Positions 14,809-33,420 of a stretch of DNA of 33,515 bases are shown here, in pieces (within the stretch, counting starts at the first letter, position 1; the number at the start of each line of letters is the position of its first letter). This DNA is from a virus: the IMG/VR virus record IMGVR_UViG_3300047476_001245, positions 1-33,515 of that record; one strand, 5' to 3'. Below the pieces are notes generated by a model. It made no database searches and was not told the origin of the DNA. It saw only the letters and a list, made by a program, of their open reading frames with translations. The position numbers were made by a program, and so were the translations under genes.

Positions 14809-17145
14809 ATGAGCAAGCACAACGACATTTACAATATCCTGGGCAAGTTATCTTCTCTACAACCTAAAGAAGAAACCAAGCCAAGCATTCTTAAAGAGTT
14901 TGCTGAATCCAAGCCAGCTGATGTTGTACAAACCTTGAACACAAGATATCAAGAGCACAAACAGTTAAATGAAAGTGGTCTACAAGCATACCTAGGCAAA
15001 AAGAAGTATGGCAAAGAAGGTATGCAGGCACTACAAAAAGCCGGCCGCGACGGTGCTAGTAAAGAGAAGATGGCCATGATTCGTGCCAAGCACGACAAGA
15101 TGGACGAAGCTGATTACAATGAAGACATGCTGAGCCCTAAGCAGAAAAAATTTGCAGCACTTGCAGAACCTAAGGACAAGATTACCTATGCTGATAAAAT
15201 TGCCGGCGCCAAGAAAAAAGAAGAAGGCAATGAGTTCAGCGGCGAGCTGGCAAAGGCCAAAGCACAAAACAAGGATAGTTTCACTGTTGGCGGAAAAGAA
15301 TATCCTGTAAAGGAAGGATTTGAAGATCAACATGATGTAGAAAACAAAGGCGAATACGATCAAGAAGGCGACATGGCCAAAGATGATCTAAGCACGATTG
15401 AAGACGCTGCACGTGAGCTGGATAGCATTTTATCAGCAGACGATAATCTGCCAGAGTGGGTACAAAGCAAGATCAACAAAGCCATGGACTATCTTGACAC
15501 AGCAAGAGATTACATGAAAGCTAATTCAGAAGACGACAATCCTGAGATGAACGAGAGTGAGTACCAAGACAAAGTTAATAAGAGCAAGGTTCCTGCGTAT
15601 CAGCGCAAGGCCAAAGGTGGAGATTGGAAAGTGAGCACAAAAGATTTAGATGATGAAGCCAGTAAGAGTCCCACAAGCCGTGCTGGATTAGAAAAATTAA
15701 AACAGCGCATGCGTGATGATGGTGTAATGGAAGGTTTCCCTACAGTAGACGATGCTCGTAAACGTGCTGAACAAGAAAAAGGCACAGGCAAGTTTGATAA
15801 GCAAACCACTGCTACTGGTACTCGTTACACTCGCAAGAGTGATACCTATAGTGACGATAATACAGAAACAGGCAGCAGCGATGCACCTAAGAAGCGCGGC
15901 CGTCCTAAGAAGCACACAGGACCAGAGCGTGTGACCAGCAAGGCCTGGAAACACAAAGGTGGTCGTAAGGTTAAAGAATCTATTAAACTAGAAACATTTG
16001 TTGAAGACACCATTGGTGAGCTTGATGCACTGCTACTAAGTGAAAAAGCAGTGAGCAAGCAACAACAAAAGTTTATGGGCATGGTCCACGCCATGCAAAA
16101 AGGCGAGAAAGTAAAAGGTGCCAGCAAAGAATTAAAAGCAGCAGCCAAGGGCATGAGCAAGAAAGATGCCAAAGACTTTGCTAGCACCAAGCACAAAGGT
16201 TTGCCAAGCAAAGTAACCGAAGGTATTAACTTCATGGAGATGATGCGTGAAACAGATCAGACAGTGGAAGAAATGCTGAATGAACTGCATGCAGAGTTGG
16301 ACGAATACAAGACCACTGGACGCATGGGCGACAAGCTGCGCGATGCATTAGAATTGCATCGTCACAACAAAAACAAGATCATGGGCGAAGCAGAAACAGA
16401 AAAGAAACATTTCTTTCACAATCCTAACGTGCCTGACGATGAGCAATTACCACCTCCGCCAGAAGAAGTGGATGTTGAATTGAATGAACTAGCACGTCTA
16501 GCAGGACTGGGCGAAGTTAGTCGCGGAGAGTATATCAAGCAACAGGACGCGGCAGCAGAACAGTCTGGCAAAGACAAGTTCAATGCTTTTGGACAAACCT
16601 TTGATACAGATCAAGTGCATGAGTCTACTTGCAATATGACAGCCGAAGGTGAAATGTGTCCTAAGCATGGATTTGCTGAATGCGGCGCAATGTACGAAAG
16701 CAAAGAGTCAATTGCGGAATGCGGAGATATGAGTCCTATGAGCAATATGTCTGAACCCAAAAGTGGCATGAGTGTGAACACCAGTTTTGATACCAAGACC
16801 GGTCGTAAGACCATGAGTGTTACAGCAGACGGCGAAGCAGCAGAACAGTTGGCACAGATGCTAAAAATGGCGGGCATGAGCGACAGTCACAATCATAACG
16901 GGCCTGAAAAGAAAGTGGTAATGGTTACTCCCGAGCAAGAAGTAGCAGAAGACTTTGCTAATGAACCTAACGAGCAGTATGCAGATACTGAAGCAATTAC
17001 CAATGCAGGACAAGATCTAAACCGTAAAAAGAAACAATACGCAGACAAACCAAAAGCAGGCGATAACCCAATGGCAACAGAAAACGTTCAACTGGAAGAT
17101 CGTTTGGCAGCGTTATATAATAGTATCAAGGTAAAAACAAGATGA
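14809..17145 (+). CDS. 778-residue multi-domain virion-type protein with AT-hook and DUF3008-like module
   Basis: A long, highly charged, beads-on-a-string protein. Visible modules: SPKQKKFAALAEPKDKITYA at 109-128; an acidic helical module 193-237; a Lys-rich module 251-320 (VPAYQRKAKGGDWKVSTKDL); an AT-hook KKRGRPKKH at 361-369, expected to bind AT-rich minor grooves; a DUF3008-like block 413-469 (KQQQKFMGMVHAMQKGEKVK; KDFASTKHKGLPSKV); the motif ELARLAGLGE near 560-569; a Cys cluster at 608-638 (CNMTAEGEMCPKHGFAECG); and a terminal YADTEAITNAG module. Linkers between modules often read hydrophobic-x-E followed by A, S or G (LNES, MDEA, MNES, VTEG, MGEA, VHES), resembling prohead-protease sites. 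I infer a head-internal, DNA-contacting, possibly processed protein. The exact role is unknown. Confidence 0.72.
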   Translation: MSKHNDIYNILGKLSSLQPKEETKPSILKEFAESKPADVVQTLNTRYQEHKQLNESGLQAYLGKKKYGKEGMQALQKAGRDGASKEKMAMIRAKHDKMDEADYNEDMLSPKQKKFAALAEPKDKITYADKIAGAKKKEEGNEFSGELAKAKAQNKDSFTVGGKEYPVKEGFEDQHDVENKGEYDQEGDMAKDDLSTIEDAARELDSILSADDNLPEWVQSKINKAMDYLDTARDYMKANSEDDNPEMNESEYQDKVNKSKVPAYQRKAKGGDWKVSTKDLDDEASKSPTSRAGLEKLKQRMRDDGVMEGFPTVDDARKRAEQEKGTGKFDKQTTATGTRYTRKSDTYSDDNTETGSSDAPKKRGRPKKHTGPERVTSKAWKHKGGRKVKESIKLETFVEDTIGELDALLLSEKAVSKQQQKFMGMVHAMQKGEKVKGASKELKAAAKGMSKKDAKDFASTKHKGLPSKVTEGINFMEMMRETDQTVEEMLNELHAELDEYKTTGRMGDKLRDALELHRHNKNKIMGEAETEKKHFFHNPNVPDDEQLPPPPEEVDVELNELARLAGLGEVSRGEYIKQQDAAAEQSGKDKFNAFGQTFDTDQVHESTCNMTAEGEMCPKHGFAECGAMYESKESIAECGDMSPMSNMSEPKSGMSVNTSFDTKTGRKTMSVTADGEAAEQLAQMLKMAGMSDSHNHNGPEKKVVMVTPEQEVAEDFANEPNEQYADTEAITNAGQDLNRKKKQYADKPKAGDNPMATENVQLEDRLAALYNSIKVKTR

Positions 17146-27867: not shown

Positions 27868-28212
27868 ATGAAAGAGTATGTTTGTAAAGATTGCGGTGTT
27901 GAAGGAATTGAACATTTCTATACAAAAGGATACCGTTATCAATGTAAACAATGTTGGAACAAAAGAACCTATAAATTATCTAGAGATAAATTAGATCAAC
28001 TAATTATTGAGCGCGGTAGTAAATGTGAAAGATGTGGATACAATAACTGTTTTGCAGCACTTCAATGGCATCACAAAGACCCAACTGCAAAAGAGTTTGG
28101 CATCAGTAGTAAAAGAGGTGCTCCTATTAACAAGCTAAGAGAAGAGGTTAACAAATGTACTTTATTGTGTGCTAATTGTCACGCTGAAGTACATGCAGAA
28201 TTAAATAATTAA
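27868..28212 (+). CDS. HNH endonuclease inside the tRNA cluster
   Basis: A 114-residue HNH protein. Two N-terminal CxxC pairs (CKDC, CKQC) precede a core with CERCGY, the catalytic-like LQWHHKDPTAKEFG and the closing LCANCHAEVHAE, giving the C-C...HH...N...C-C-H pattern. It has its own ribosome site and late-type motif and fits exactly between two tRNAs (its stop is three bases before tRNA-Leu), as expected for a small mobile endonuclease gene lodged in a tRNA array. No intron structure is visible. Confidence 0.85.
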   Translation: MKEYVCKDCGVEGIEHFYTKGYRYQCKQCWNKRTYKLSRDKLDQLIIERGSKCERCGYNNCFAALQWHHKDPTAKEFGISSKRGAPINKLREEVNKCTLLCANCHAEVHAELNN

Positions 28213-28215
28213 TTT

Positions 28216-28298
28216 GCGAGTATGGAGAAATTGGTAAACTCAGAAGACTTAAAATCTTCCGCTTCGGCTTGCCGGTTCGAGTCCGGCTACTCGTACCA
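28216..28298 (+). tRNA. tRNA-Leu (UAA)
   Basis: An 83-base class II tRNA. The acceptor GCGAGTA pairs with TACTCGT through a G-U end pair; the anticodon loop CTTAAAA gives UAA. A long variable arm (GCTTCGGC) follows, T arm GCCGG-TTCGAGT-CCGGC, then ACCA. Confidence 0.92.
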
Positions 28299-28303
28299 GA
28301 TAA

Positions 28304-28378
28304 CTGGCGTTCGTATAATGGATAATACAGGGGATTTCTACTCCCTAAATGTGGGTTCGATTCCTGCACGCCGGGCCA
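28304..28378 (+). tRNA. tRNA-Arg (UCU)
   Basis: A 75-base cloverleaf: acceptor CTGGCGT with ACGCCGG, anticodon loop TTTCTAC (UCU), T loop TTCGATT, discriminator G and encoded CCA. It reads AGA/AGG codons, which are frequent in the genes here. Confidence 0.9.
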
Positions 28379-28380
28379 AA

Positions 28381-28388
28381 GATAAATA
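28381..28388 (+). promoter_or_regulatory. late promoter motif (GATAAATA) between tRNAs
   Basis: GATAAATA follows tRNA-Arg by two bases. It may give late transcription of the last tRNA of the array. The following 60 bases hold no convincing gene. Confidence 0.4.
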
Positions 28389-28447
28389 AACATATGAACA
28401 AGCTCTATACTACTGCACGAATACGTACTCATCAATGATGACGTCTT

Positions 28448-28537
28448 CCCACGGTAGCTCAAGGAGAGCAGGAGGCCTTATAAGCCTTTCGTCCAGATAA
28501 GACCCAGGATGCGGTTCGATTCCGCACCGTGGGACCA
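28448..28537 (+). tRNA. unusual tRNA, anticodon apparently UAU, 21-base variable region
   Basis: A 90-base tRNA: acceptor CCCACGG with CCGTGGG, D arm GCTC-AAGGA-GAGC with a very short loop, anticodon stem GAGGC/GCCTT around CTTATAA (UAU, Ile AUA codons), T arm TGCGG-TTCGATT-CCGCA, then ACCA. Between anticodon and T arms lie 21 bases, as in class II tRNAs (Leu, Ser, Tyr), which conflicts with an Ile identity. The amino acid is therefore uncertain. Confidence 0.75.
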
Positions 28538-28544
28538 ATTCATT

Positions 28545-28568
28545 AAAAAGCCCCTTTCGGGGCTTTTT
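28545..28568. terminator. bidirectional terminator
   Basis: AAAAAGCCCC (28545-28554), loop TTTC, GGGGCTTTTT (28559-28568). The A-run on one side and T-run on the other make it work in both directions: for the tRNA array (plus) and for the autotransporter gene (minus), whose stop is ten bases away. Confidence 0.9.
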
Positions 28569-28577
28569 ATTTGGATA

Positions 28578-30908
28578 TTAAAATCCTATTCTAAGCATTA
28601 TACTACCAGAGGTACTTTGAATATCTTGACTGTGTAAATGCACAGCTCCTATAATCGCAGACACCTTTTGGGAAAGTTGCTTGCCCACACCCAACCGAGA
28701 TACAGTAAGGTTTGTTGAAGTTTGTGCTACTTCTCCGTAAACATTCATAGTACCGAACTGTCTATCGTAACGTAGTCCATATTCATGAGTGCGTGTGTTA
28801 TTATCCACAGCAGAATAATTTATAGCTGTGATTGCACTTCCAGATTCTACCACTGCATCTCTGCGATTGTTTTCGTGTCTTACCCCCACAAAAGGTCTAA
28901 GCCCTGCTATATCTGGAGTGTATAGTCTAGCATTGATCCAGTAGTCGTTACCGTTGGTTTTACTGCTGTTTGAGTAACCCAATGCTGGTAGACTGTGACT
29001 GGCTGCGAACATATTGTTGGCATATCCCAACTGTGAACTTACAATCCAGTTTCTAGCCACCCAGGTTGAGTTCAAGGCAAAAATGTCCTTGGTTAGACTG
29101 CCGGTAGCATCATTACCGCCCATGTTGCTGTCAAAGCGACTTAAAGAAAATCCAACCACTAAATTTTCTCGTAACAGTTTGTCTAATCCAAAACCATAAC
29201 GTGAACTCATGATCAAGTAGTTGTCAAAACTATAGTCTGCTGTTTTCTCTCCAAATGCATAAAAAGAAACAGTTCTAGCAGAATCAACATTGCCTTTAAA
29301 ACTTAATTCACCGTTGATCACAGAATGTCTGTTTAACAAATTATCAGAGCTGAGTAAATTGGCCAGATTATTTGTTTGTGACAATACTGCATACTGATCA
29401 ATTCTTGTGTAATAGCTCTGATCGTCGCTGGTAGTAGAAACAGTATTAAAAGTACTGGTAGTTGTAACCACTTGATTGCTGGTACTAGTGGTAGTTACCG
29501 GAGTACCGTTTGTAGTAGTGGTTGTGCCATCACTATAAGTTGTAACAGTGGTTGGCGTGGTTGTGGTGGTTGTGGTAACAGGTGTGATTTGAGTCACCAC
29601 TCTAGTTACAGGTGTGGTTGTTACCACGGTGGTATTACGATTGATTTCAAGAGTTTTTTCAGTTTGTGTACCTCTAGTGTCGGTCACAGTGGTAACGCTG
29701 CTGGGTGCGCCCGCGGTGTCCGCAGTTGTGCTAGTTGTGGTGCCATAACTAACTGAAGTGTTTACAATGTTTGCACCAGGAGTAGTACTAACCACAGTAG
29801 GGGTCATGCTGCTCACAGAACCAGGTGTGCCAGGATTTGCAATTGTACCAGACCCAGAAGCTACACTGGTTGTGGAGTTGTTGCTATCATAATAGTAAGT
29901 AACTTCACCAATTTGTACGCTATCGCATGCCAGAGTACCCAGTGCTGCTTGACATGCAGCAATTGATCCGTAGTCATCTATGGCCTTGATACTCGGAAAG
30001 GTAATAAAGTAGTACACATAAGCATTGGTGTTGGCAATGCTAATCATGCTAGTCTGTGTGTAACGTCCGCTTACGTTTTCCAATGTGGTGCTTTGGTTGG
30101 CTGTGATTTCAGTCCAGGTTACACCATCGTTAGATCCGTACAATGTGAACTTGGTGGGATCACGTGGTACAAAATCATTGGCTGTGGTAAATTTTATGCC
30201 ATCAATAACCTTGCCTGCATTCAGTGTGATAGTGAAACCAGCATTAGCGCGATCAAAGTTTAGATACTTGCTACCACTAGCGCCATCAACTGCTTGTGTG
30301 GCTCCTTCGCCGGCTGGACTGTTGTTACTGGTTGGAGTTATTGCAGTAATAATTCCGCTGGTCACTGCGGTAGGATTTGGTGCAGGTGTTCCGCTACCAC
30401 CACTGCTGGCAGTTTGCCCAGCACTCAATGGAGTGGTACTGGCCCAGGTGTATGAACTGGCATCTGTGCCAGACACACTGGTATCCATGTTGGTAAATGA
30501 ACCGCTTTGCCCATATGCATAACCTGCACTGGTGGTGATTACTGTGCCAAAAAATCCTGAACCCACATAGAACAGTGCGTCTGGACCAATGGCTTGCAAG
30601 GTACCAGTATTGTGCAATACTTGTGCTAGTGTGCCATCTGAGTTGTAAAGGCCCAATCCATACGTACCCGGATTGGTAGTTGAGTTGAAAAATGCAAAAT
30701 ACTGTCCACTGCCCACTGTAGGATGTTGAAAATTCATATCGAATGGTGCAATGAAATTACTAGCATTTAAGGTGGTACCAGACCAGTAATATTGAACGTC
30801 AAAAATTTGGTTAGTGCTAAAATGTCCGTCTGTGATATCTGCTTTAGCTGGAAGAATAGATGATAGAAAAACAGCAAGAGTCACAGCGACTCTGCTGAAG
30901 AATTTCAT
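28578..30908 (-). CDS. autotransporter-like outer-membrane protein with discoidin-like domain
   Basis: A 776-residue type V secretion-like protein. It starts with a Sec signal peptide (MKFFSRVAVTLAVFLSSILP, cleavage after AKA at 23). Residues 24-180 form a PEP-CTERM/autotransporter-style beta passenger (DVQYYWSGTTLNASNFIAPF). Residues about 190-340 look like an F5/8 type C (discoidin) carbohydrate-binding module (GFTITLNAGKVIDGIKFTTA; TKFTLYGSNDGVTWTEITAN). Residues 370-495 are a Thr/Val/Ser stalk. Residues about 530-776 are a C-terminal beta barrel with alternating aromatic strands, ending in MLRIGF with the terminal Phe recognised by BAM. The ATG at 30908 follows AAGGAG; the longer upstream frame is rejected. 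It sits between the tRNA terminator and a divergent promoter. I infer host surface display, perhaps altering receptor access or adhesion. Confidence 0.85.
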   Translation of the reverse strand: MKFFSRVAVTLAVFLSSILPAKADITDGHFSTNQIFDVQYYWSGTTLNASNFIAPFDMNFQHPTVGSGQYFAFFNSTTNPGTYGLGLYNSDGTLAQVLHNTGTLQAIGPDALFYVGSGFFGTVITTSAGYAYGQSGSFTNMDTSVSGTDASSYTWASTTPLSAGQTASSGGSGTPAPNPTAVTSGIITAITPTSNNSPAGEGATQAVDGASGSKYLNFDRANAGFTITLNAGKVIDGIKFTTANDFVPRDPTKFTLYGSNDGVTWTEITANQSTTLENVSGRYTQTSMISIANTNAYVYYFITFPSIKAIDDYGSIAACQAALGTLACDSVQIGEVTYYYDSNNSTTSVASGSGTIANPGTPGSVSSMTPTVVSTTPGANIVNTSVSYGTTTSTTADTAGAPSSVTTVTDTRGTQTEKTLEINRNTTVVTTTPVTRVVTQITPVTTTTTTTPTTVTTYSDGTTTTTNGTPVTTTSTSNQVVTTTSTFNTVSTTSDDQSYYTRIDQYAVLSQTNNLANLLSSDNLLNRHSVINGELSFKGNVDSARTVSFYAFGEKTADYSFDNYLIMSSRYGFGLDKLLRENLVVGFSLSRFDSNMGGNDATGSLTKDIFALNSTWVARNWIVSSQLGYANNMFAASHSLPALGYSNSSKTNGNDYWINARLYTPDIAGLRPFVGVRHENNRRDAVVESGSAITAINYSAVDNNTRTHEYGLRYDRQFGTMNVYGEVAQTSTNLTVSRLGVGKQLSQKVSAIIGAVHLHSQDIQSTSGSIMLRIGF

Positions 30909-30977
30909 TTTGTAGAGCTCCTTTAAAAAAATTAAGAACGTGATTGAAAAACAGAAGTAGATTGAATTGGTGTTCTT

Positions 30978-31005
30978 TTTATATCTACAAGAATATTTAA
31001 TCCAA
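30978..31005 (-). promoter_or_regulatory. possible sigma70 promoter for the autotransporter gene
   Basis: On the minus strand TTGGAT (31000-31005), 16 bases, TATAAA (30978-30983). The spacer also holds ATTAAATA (30994-31001), late-like. Both are only partial matches. Confidence 0.4.
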
Positions 31006-31012
31006 TAAAGTG

Positions 31013-31021
31013 TGTTATAAT
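31013..31021 (+). promoter_or_regulatory. extended -10 promoter (TGTTATAAT) for the 31055 gene
   Basis: TGT followed by a perfect TATAAT, the extended -10 form that can do without a good -35; the hexamer 17 bases upstream (ATATTT) is poor. It lies 34 bases before the ATG and is divergent from the autotransporter gene. Confidence 0.55.
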
Positions 31022-31054
31022 CTAGTGTTACAATACCCAGCATAAGTACAGTTT

Positions 31055-31480
31055 ATGGAACTCAGCGAATACGATCCCATGCGCCACCACAGCATAGCCT
31101 ATCCTATGGAGGTAGGTGCGCCCAAGTTTGAGCTGGTGCCGGTTACCAAGCAGAAAGATCTCATGGTGAATGCTGCTAGGATGCATGCGCAGCAGGAATA
31201 TGATCGTATCATGGAAGTGGTGCGAGTGCTGCAAAAGCAAGCAGAAGACATAAAGAAACGTTTAGATCTAACTGATCAAGTGCATGCTGCTGCATACCAG
31301 CATCAACTGTACCCAGGACAAATGTACTGGCTAGCAAATGATAATAAAAAAGGTGGAACTGTGCTCATGCACACTGGTCCCATGGACTGGAGTACAGGCA
31401 AGCCAGAACATCTAGAATACATCACACGAATACAATGGCTAGGAGATTATACCTGGAGAGAAGTTACGGAAAATGAGTAA
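31055..31480 (+). CDS. DUF2452-like protein
   Basis: A 141-residue protein with the pattern I associate with DUF2452: an N-terminal SIAYPMEVGAPKFELVP segment, a helix EYDRIMEVVRVLQKQAEDIK continuing RLDLTDQVHAAAYQ, and the end YPGQMYWLANDN...GPMDW. The function of this family is unknown. The next gene overlaps by eight bases. It has an extended -10 promoter. Confidence 0.72.
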   Translation: MELSEYDPMRHHSIAYPMEVGAPKFELVPVTKQKDLMVNAARMHAQQEYDRIMEVVRVLQKQAEDIKKRLDLTDQVHAAAYQHQLYPGQMYWLANDNKKGGTVLMHTGPMDWSTGKPEHLEYITRIQWLGDYTWREVTENE

Positions 31481-32297: not shown

Positions 32298-32696
32298 ATG
32301 AAACGTATCTTTGTAAACGGCACCTTTGACATTGTACATCGTGGGCATATAGAACTATTAAACTATGCTCGCAGTCAAGGTGACCACCTATTGGTAGCCA
32401 TAGACAGCGATCAAAGAGTACAACAACTAAAAGGCTCCACTCGTCCAATCAACACTCTTGAAGACCGCATGTTCATGCTTTCTAATCTACGATCTGTTGA
32501 TCAAGTGGTTAGTTTTAGTTCTGACCAAGAGCTAGAAAGCATAATTAAACAGTATGCACCCGACGCCATGATCAAAGGATCAGATTACATTGGCAAACAC
32601 ATTATTGGTGCAGAATATTGCAAGGCAATTGAATTTTATCAACTGGTAAATGGATACTCAACTACACAAAAAATACAAGATATTGTTGGTAGGTGA
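32298..32696 (+). CDS. hldE-C: D-glycero-beta-D-manno-heptose 1-phosphate adenylyltransferase (HldE C-domain-like)
   Basis: A 132-residue cytidylyltransferase-fold enzyme equal to the second domain of HldE (RfaE), which makes ADP-heptose from heptose 1-phosphate and ATP. The signature reads NGTFDIVHRGHIELL (7-21), with LLVAIDSDQRVQQLKGSTRP and NTLEDRMFMLSNLRSVDQVV following, then MIKGSDYIGK and YSTTQKIQDI, all matching E. coli HldE in order. It starts six bases after tRNA-Trp. In bacteria this domain follows the kinase; here it precedes it as a separate gene overlapping it by 47 bases. Confidence 0.92.
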   Translation: MKRIFVNGTFDIVHRGHIELLNYARSQGDHLLVAIDSDQRVQQLKGSTRPINTLEDRMFMLSNLRSVDQVVSFSSDQELESIIKQYAPDAMIKGSDYIGKHIIGAEYCKAIEFYQLVNGYSTTQKIQDIVGR

Positions 32697-33420
32697 CAAC
32701 GGAGTCGACCAGTATCAATATGGTACTGTGAATCGCATCAGCCCCGAAGCACCTGTACCTGTGCTAGATCTCAGTCATACCATTACCAAGCCAGGCATGG
32801 CAGCTAATGTGCTGGAAAATCTCAAAGCTCTAGGCTGCGATGTTACTTTTGAACATGGACTAAAAACCTGTATCAAAACTCGAGTGATTGACCTACGCAG
32901 CAAACAGCAGTTGATACGCATAGATCAAGATCAAGAATCACGTTCAGTAAAAATCAACTATAATTCTCTTAGCAAATATGATGCCATTGTGGTCAGCGAC
33001 TATGCCAAAGGATCAGTAGACTATGACTGTGTGCAAAATTTAAGATTAAACTATACTGGTCCAATCTTTGTGGATACTAAGAAAACTGATCTAGCAAAAT
33101 TCACTGGTTGCACAATCAAGATCAATCAGTTAGAATACAGTAAGCTGGTAACCAAACCTGATCTGCTTACCGACATGATTGTTACGCAAGGAGATCGTGG
33201 TGCCATGTGGAATGGCAGATTGTATCCTGCACAACCTGTAGAAGTATCAGATGTATGCGGTGCAGGAGACACGTTTTTAGCAGCCTTGTGCTATGGGTAT
33301 CTTGAAACACAGGATATGGCGCAGGCAGTGGAATTTGCATTAAGAGCCAGTGCTGTAACTGTACAACATGTGGGAGTGTATGCTCCACGATTAGAAGAAA
33401 TTAACCAGGAGAAATCATGA
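32650..33420 (+). CDS. hldE-N: heptose 7-phosphate kinase (HldE N-domain-like, PfkB family)
   Basis: A 256-residue ribokinase-like enzyme matching the first domain of HldE (about 318 residues). The start ILLVGDNGVDQYQYGTVNRI plus SPEAPVPVL, the segment KTRVIDLRSKQQLIRIDQD, DAIVVSDYAKGSV, and the catalytic GAGDTF with D207 (204-209) are in HldE order. Relative to E. coli about 30-40 residues are missing between GMAANVLENLKALG and KTRVI, removing part of the lid. It would phosphorylate D-glycero-D-manno-heptose 7-phosphate at O1. Together with the adenylyltransferase it could raise ADP-heptose for LPS core assembly, but the intervening GmhB phosphatase is not seen here. Confidence 0.88.
   Translation: MDTQLHKKYKILLVGDNGVDQYQYGTVNRISPEAPVPVLDLSHTITKPGMAANVLENLKALGCDVTFEHGLKTCIKTRVIDLRSKQQLIRIDQDQESRSVKINYNSLSKYDAIVVSDYAKGSVDYDCVQNLRLNYTGPIFVDTKKTDLAKFTGCTIKINQLEYSKLVTKPDLLTDMIVTQGDRGAMWNGRLYPAQPVEVSDVCGAGDTFLAALCYGYLETQDMAQAVEFALRASAVTVQHVGVYAPRLEEINQEKS

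Follow-up and report, generated by a model that had tools for sequence, protein, structure and literature searches.

A predicted type Va-like autotransporter in a T4-type phage genome fragment carries a head domain of which related phages have versions on curli-type subunits

The systems closest to the protein described here are the type Va autotransporters, represented by the EstA and NalP translocators, and the curli operons of phages. In pelagiphage HTVC008M the curli genes run csgF-csgG-csgB-gp017-gp018-cyclase, where the position of gp017 is that of a FecR gene (PMC9599517, in the part consulted), and gp018, the occupant of what we call the slot, joins a PA14 head to curlin repeats. What phages gain from curli genes is still debated in the literature, where the proposals include sibling capture, superinfection defence, uptake and lysis timing. 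Sibling capture has been put forward for pelagimyophage curli (PMC7029224), and a role in lysis timing for the CsgGF of Melnitz, for which no clumping was seen (PMC9004378); for the curli of pelagiphages, PMC9599517 raises defence, uptake and aggregation.

The window, meaning the whole stretch of DNA that was analysed, is a 33.5-kb virus record. It carries T4-type genes for sheath, tube, terminase, single-strand binding protein, UvsX and UvsY, and its terminase is most similar to those of PA5oct (54% identity) and other Pseudomonas phages in the 284-288 kb range. A separate 778-aa protein, encoded at 14809-17145, shows strong AT skew in its DNA and a weak DUF3008 match alone. The protein under study, P0001, is read from an ATG at 30908 to a stop at 28578; a sequence-only reading of this DNA had placed an autotransporter gene at 28578-30908, which is right, and the strand is minus. 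Nine relatives with 48-91% identity occur in other IMG/VR contigs, which rules out a chance ORF. The features of the window are as follows; L and G numbers below denote loci and records of the IMG/VR relatives.

28578..30908, minus strand: autotransporter-type protein P0001, 776 aa (ORF; IMG/VR relatives)
30840..30908, minus strand: signal-peptide-like N-terminus, residues 1-23, with AKA before D24 (read from sequence)
30405..30839, minus strand: head domain, residues 24-168 (local HMM, alignment, AF2 model, dN/dS)
29865..30362, minus strand: F5/8 type C (discoidin/CBM32-like) module, residues 183-348 (PF00754; structural matches)
29424..29864, minus strand: Thr-rich stalk, residues 349-495 (sequence; long strands in the model; motif common with cyanophage proteins)
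28581..29423, minus strand: translocator domain, residues 496-776 (PF03797; helix 505-519 and 12-strand barrel 547-775; terminal Phe)
30994..30999, minus strand: TAAATA, a T4-type late-promoter-like motif, 91 nt upstream of the start (sequence)
28545..28568, no strand assigned: bidirectional-terminator-like hairpin common with the tRNA array (by eye; unlisted by the terminator scan)
30877..30893, minus strand: 7-bp hairpin in the signal-peptide codons, followed by a T-rich stretch
32298..33420, plus strand: nucleotidyltransferase (32298-32696) and PfkB-type kinase (32650-33420), HldE-like halves; the nucleotidyltransferase gene is found again close to many autotransporter-type relatives

The architecture and fold were computed with AlphaFold2 from a 39-row alignment of the window protein and IMG/VR protein segments. 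The resulting model of P0001 has a mean pLDDT of 78.6 and a pTM of 0.47, and shows 12 long strands in residues 547-775 with a helix at 505-519 before them; the mean pLDDT of 10-residue blocks of the barrel is 86 to 97 from residue 551 on. A barrel within 530-776, ending in Phe, had been expected from the letters alone, and both the strands and the terminal aromatic residue, F776, bear this out. With VIA-align, the top match of the model is EstA (Z 28.9, 269 residues, 2.0 Å), and then NalP (Z 28.6, 258 residues, 1.9 Å), AaaA, EspP, AIDA-I and Hbp. Residues 502-776 superpose on NalP, by which the helix would lie inside the pore. When the isolated barrel (496-776) is used as a query, it matches the Pfam Autotransporter family (PF03797) at E 2.8e-11 (44.1 bits, cut-off 26). 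The family is missing from the Pfam listing of full-length P0001, but the full-length siblings L009 (5.2e-13) and L007 (3.7e-9) exceed its cut-off; for L011, L014 and L003 it is unlisted even with the barrel alone as the query. The Pfam match, the 12-strand model and the superposition on EstA and NalP together sustain the claim of a phage-encoded autotransporter. At the other end of the protein, residues 1-23 look by eye like a Sec signal peptide, and residues 2-16 form a helix in the model.

A tail-fibre or baseplate adhesin that resembles an autotransporter would be a different reading of the same protein, in which P0001 belongs to the virion. Sugar-binding domains do occur in phage tail fibres. 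So do YadA-type domains, according to the parts consulted of PMC3909814 and PMC9146016. Nonetheless, the signal-peptide-like start, the 12-strand barrel with its helix, the terminal Phe and a slot that is common to curli-type proteins all stand against a virion protein, and no recognised virion gene adjoins the P0001 gene. It is on this start, the barrel and the neighbours that we reject a virion fibre, a reading to which we give next to no probability.

The Pfam F5/8C family (PF00754) is found in residues 191-296 of P0001 (E 1.3e-8, 35.5 bits versus a cut-off of 28.2). In VIA-align, the matches of residues 178-345 are to F5/8C and CBM32 domains, with SUN domains scoring almost as high, and Z runs from 16.1 to 13.5; the best value, 16.1 over 142 residues, is with 7nsn, and Z is 14.5 with the F5/8C domain 3nng, 13.9 with the CBM32 4lqr and 13.9 with SUN domains. 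The discoidin-like domain named in the sequence-only reading is thus present, and the jelly roll that it foresaw in residues 190-340 was found. The module is probably sugar-binding. The Thr-rich stalk that had been described is plain in the sequence of residues 349-495. The label of beta passenger conceals a separate head domain, residues 24-168, which defines most of the family. The AF2 model of the head (pLDDT 85.1, pTM 0.82) has no significant Foldseek match, with best E values of 0.088 in the PDB and 0.12 in BFVD, and its best VIA Z is 2.9 over 33 residues; this absence is not evidence of a new fold.

The same gene had been suggested for a search in metagenomic phages, and when the family alignment was run against IMG/VR, 91 relatives came up. 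The best 80 of these 91, together with L012, make up 81 loci and 68 distinct proteins, 13 loci with identical proteins having been left out before all counts of distinct proteins. INPHARED (50,697 records) holds two matches to P0001, both in Synechococcus phages and confined to the stalk and barrel; the head has no match there at E up to 1, and P0017, a protein with a second type of barrel, has none either. Two scans of 84,980 genomes with narrow stalk and barrel motif patterns returned no bacterial relatives, and plasmids queried with P0008 returned no relative.

The mosaic was mapped by local HMMs on 71 distinct proteins, namely that of the window, the 68 from IMG/VR (best 80 of 91 plus L012) and two from cyanophages. 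Within this set, heads of the same kind, with or without F5/8C, are found on several autotransporter C-termini or on curlin-repeat tails. The first scaffold is the window-type Thr stalk and barrel. The second is a stalk with the second barrel type, which is recognised solely because it weakly resembles the first (E 1e-8 to 1e-14); Pfam Autotransporter was not matched in the three full-length proteins of this type that were tried, and some members are recognised by likeness to another such protein, L043 and L060 having been classed by hand from their likeness to L044 and L061. The third, in L008, which was treated as its own type, joins an NNGT-repeat passenger to a barrel for which PF03797 is found at E 1.5e-19. 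The fourth is curlin repeats (PF07012, E 5.5e-8 in L020), a class defined by an HMM built on eight of its 21 members; such repeats, found in relatives, are not listed by Pfam for P0001 at E up to 1. The window-type stalk and barrel also carry other N-terminal domains, including those of the cyanophage group. There is one matching ORF per record in 17 of 17 records.

The curlin-tailed head proteins occupy a defined place. All 21 distinct ones (best 80 of 91 plus L012) have a phage CsgG, a curlin and a FecR gene upstream, and 20 of them have CsgF there as well; in the last, L038, the DNA ends at that point. The order is csgF, csgG, curlin, FecR-domain gene and slot gene, with a CHASE2-adenylate cyclase downstream where the flank allows, and Pfam E values for these neighbours are 1.1e-51 (CsgG), 5.2e-12 (CsgF) and 3.9e-10 (FecR). 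In large phages, heme oxygenase (PF01126) and ferredoxin-dependent bilin reductase (PF05996) genes are also seen upstream of the curli operon. Two features of the relatives are located as follows.

L021:3551-4751, with counterparts in many other loci of the curli type: genes for heme oxygenase (PF01126) and bilin reductase (PF05996)
L021:10306-12345, and relatives: CHASE2-adenylate/guanylate cyclase downstream of the slot gene (PF05226, PF00211)

Computation also shows that the slot is shared. Four of the 21 autotransporter-type head proteins (window excluded; best 80 of 91 plus L012) have CsgG in the locus, 13 are without it, and the remaining four have <4.5 kb of upstream DNA. In the near-identical L005 and L006, and in L008, the autotransporter comes directly after FecR. 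L014 has a short headless curlin between FecR and the head-bearing autotransporter, and G012 (338 kb) has a headless curlin of ∼180 residues after FecR and its head on an autotransporter ∼24 kb away. The autotransporters of the CsgG-less L007, L009, L017, L019, L027 and L048 lie between common outer neighbours, with Hsp20-like and ClpS-like genes on one side; the gene on the opposite side encodes, in L009, a D-Ala-D-Ala carboxypeptidase. L004, the 91% relative, has the window's own neighbours in the same order, bar the HNH gene of the window, and the 1-kb GC values over the P0001 gene (0.41-0.47) lie inside, and at the top of, the range of the window (0.365-0.469); the idea that the gene is a separately acquired unit finds no support here. 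CsgG was found in 13 of the 32 records searched, and not in the window (33.5 kb, a fragment), the 355-kb L004 record or the 367-kb L011 record, all of which may be incomplete.

In related phages the second curlin of a phage-encoded curli operon (type VIII secretion) bears versions of this head, which makes the autotransporter another scaffold for it. Because a head of the same kind is carried by an autotransporter in records where CsgG was not found, these data suggest that the head can do its work without the CsgG pore and without the amyloid fibre, which argues against pore-only hypotheses for head-bearing systems. The gene order also bears on an uptake or sensing device, in which the head would work with FecR and the CHASE2 cyclase to capture a nutrient or signal at the surface of the infected cell. 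FecR and the cyclase do flank the slot in curli-type phages, and uptake has been suggested for phage curli in the parts consulted of PMC7029224 and PMC9599517. L004 and loci of the L009 type, however, keep the head-bearing autotransporter with neither FecR nor CsgG in their available flanks, and the window record is without CsgG too. An autotransporter barrel, moreover, is usually plugged. We therefore consider uptake or sensing improbable.

HldE-like genes were seen repeatedly near autotransporter-type heads. Among autotransporter-type head loci that lack CsgG and have sufficient flank, nine of 13 have a nucleotidyltransferase gene of this kind within 3 kb, in three gene orders; L004, L009 and L043 are among the loci. 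None of the 26 head loci with CsgG has one. It is possible that these genes supply sugar for surface glycosylation. O-heptosylation of the Thr stalk, which the adjacent HldE-like genes had suggested, gained no support, as Aah/TibC (TIGR04414) was found in none of nine phage records. A lead is left by matches to the GT9 family, in G002 and, at a distance from the gene of at least tens of kb, in G001.

Across 35 aligned heads, identity to the head of the window ranges from 27 to 93%, and L007, L011 and L012 carry a second head form that is 27-29% identical to it. With L009, L015, L017 and L014, the window shares 89-92% identity in the head and 40-63% in the barrel. The computed dN/dS of the head is 0.03-0.05 between the window and six relatives, at dS values of 1 to 3 that are near saturation. 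Taken with the identities over the whole family, these values describe a head that is constrained between close relatives yet diverged across the family. A fast-diversifying head is therefore unsupported between close relatives, and the divergent head forms may reflect older diversification. Purifying selection is not special to the head: between the window and L004, the head, F5/8C module, stalk and barrel are similarly constrained (dN/dS 0.02-0.07; F5/8C 0.03, barrel 0.07). Six other close pairs were compared: conservation peaks in the head in L018-L023 and L043-L044, and another stretch equals or exceeds it in L022-L026, L031-L032, L036-L038 and L044-L069.

Upstream of P0001 is a divergent intergenic region of 146 bp that contains TAAATA, which we take to be the core of the T4-type late promoter, in keeping with the proposal that the gene has a promoter region of its own. 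This motif lies 21-27 nt from the start in six virion genes versus 91 nt for P0001, and is present within 40 nt upstream of 12 of the 32 window genes (opposite strand, two). Within 120 nt, 24 of 39 autotransporter-type genes (best 80 of 91) have it, against 6.3 expected from mononucleotide shuffles that ignore kinship and one on the opposite strand; before csgF starts it occurs in 20 of 24, with 2.9 expected from shuffles, again ignoring kinship, and one on the opposite strand. As the sequences are related, these counts are not independent. With genes too near a contig end omitted, the 24 genes comprise all 16 with the window barrel (a count that includes L008 and excludes the cyanophage type), four of nine with the second barrel and four of 14 of the cyanophage type; the motif is absent within 120 nt in the second-barrel genes L043, L044, L045, L069 and L081 and in 10 of the 14 cyanophage-type genes. 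Curlin-tailed and other slot genes, mostly internal to the operon, have it in three of 25 cases versus 2.7 expected, which is as expected if the operon promoter precedes csgF. On the basis of these motifs, expression of P0001 is probably late. Scans of 28200-31300 gave five sigma-70 sites versus 6.3 in shuffles and one terminator versus 2.5. The bidirectional terminator said to be shared with the tRNA array agrees with the hairpin seen by eye at 28545-28568 between tRNA-Ile (end 28537) and the P0001 stop, where an inverted repeat of 10 bp without mismatches is accompanied by runs of A and T.

Further hairpins were noted around the start of the gene. The hairpin in the signal codons recurs at the same place in relatives, with a paired change that keeps the pairing in L013, L017 and L042. 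Hairpins of at least 7 bp near the CDS start are found in 25 of 31 genes with the window barrel type, compared with six of the 35 remaining head genes and 51 of the 318 control ORFs, an excess of which kinship and Ala-rich signal peptides may explain part. Folding of window positions 30909-30990 and of the 5' regions of ten genes shows, in several, stems of the GTAGAC...GTCTAC type that lie downstream of the late motif and upstream of the ribosome-binding site; z-scores are -3.0 to -5.2 in L009, L017, L048 and L011 and -0.6 to -2.0 in the other six (window, -1.0).

The timing weighs on receptor masking, of which the form directed at superinfection was the first guess of the sequence-only reading. 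Under masking, the displayed head and F5/8C module would bind a glycan of the cell's own surface and cover receptors, thereby excluding superinfecting phages or sparing progeny from adsorption to debris. T5 Llp is a precedent for masking of this kind. The surface topology and the F5/8C module fit it, divergent head forms would fit different receptors, and superinfection defence is among the proposals for phage curli in the part of PMC9599517 consulted. The late-promoter-like motifs fit an early exclusion of rivals poorly, and a scaffold of curlin fibres would be expected to extend outwards rather than lie on the cell. Late timing does suit the protection of progeny from debris. We regard masking overall as unlikely, though well above the virion and uptake readings.

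We favour instead, as on the whole probable by a small measure, the joint reading that P0001 is a type Va-like autotransporter adhesin, an alternative to phage curli as the scaffold of the head, which is made late, binds glycans and tethers. By its family membership, nascent P0001 would be exported by the host Sec system, the host BAM complex would insert its 12-strand barrel in the outer membrane, and the Thr-rich stalk would hold the head and F5/8C module outside the infected cell. There, the head and F5/8C module would most likely bind a glycan on host-type cells or particles, such that infected cells and, after lysis, envelope fragments would stay near new hosts. Such a tether, which would hold infected cells and what is left of their envelopes to hosts or particles, is in our view the likeliest use, and we give it a little less than an even chance. 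The Melnitz CsgGF phage counts against this best reading, with no clumping seen in the part of PMC9004378 consulted. More broadly, and more speculatively, we would suggest a late, modular "surface take-over" in large T4-like phages, with one head per genome, on curli or on an autotransporter, that would tether infected cells and their remains to hosts. If this is true, the head and not the fibre would be the selected part, and the purpose of phage curli could be tested with a simple one-gene autotransporter. Expression of this one gene in E. coli could give access to both the ligand and the effect.

The sequence-only reading knew of no described system of this kind, which stands insofar as no publication on a phage autotransporter of this type, or on the exchange of heads between it and curlin, was found in the open-access literature, a scope that leaves most subscription journals and bioRxiv outside. 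The statement needs qualification, as phage curli are published and GenBank labels WJZ47857.1 of Synechococcus phage DSL-LC03 an autotransporter barrel protein. The word autotransporter is absent from the main text of PMC10611076, which concerns that phage, and from the main texts of PMC7029224, PMC9599517 and PMC9004378. Autotransporters, F5/8C modules and phage curli are already known, and the phage autotransporter version and the scaffold swap are apparently absent from that open-access literature.

Compared with these systems, P0001 is like the type Va autotransporters in its 12-strand barrel, the preceding helix, the terminal aromatic residue and the signal-peptide-like start. It differs from EstA and NalP in being carried by a phage, in a passenger where a Thr-rich stalk bears an F5/8C module and a head whose fold matched nothing significantly, and in an identity of 15% over the aligned barrel. 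The metagenome-assembled Synechococcus phages DSL-LC03 and DSL-LC02 (WJZ48311.1, hypothetical) encode proteins with the same stalk motif and barrel type; unlike P0001, these have another N-terminal domain, F5/8C was not found in them, and identity in the matched part is 22-23%. The likeness to the pelagiphage curli module is one of gene order, as relatives carry csgF-csgG-curlin-FecR-slot-cyclase, with another head on curlin repeats in place of the PA14 head of gp018, and the curlin tail of L020 matches HTVC008M and four Melnitz records. In contrast to phage curli, the window has its head on an autotransporter, with no CsgG in its 33.5 kb or in the 355-kb relative. The presence of versions of this head on both curli and autotransporter points to a shared, little-understood way in which phages may rebuild the surface of the infected cell.
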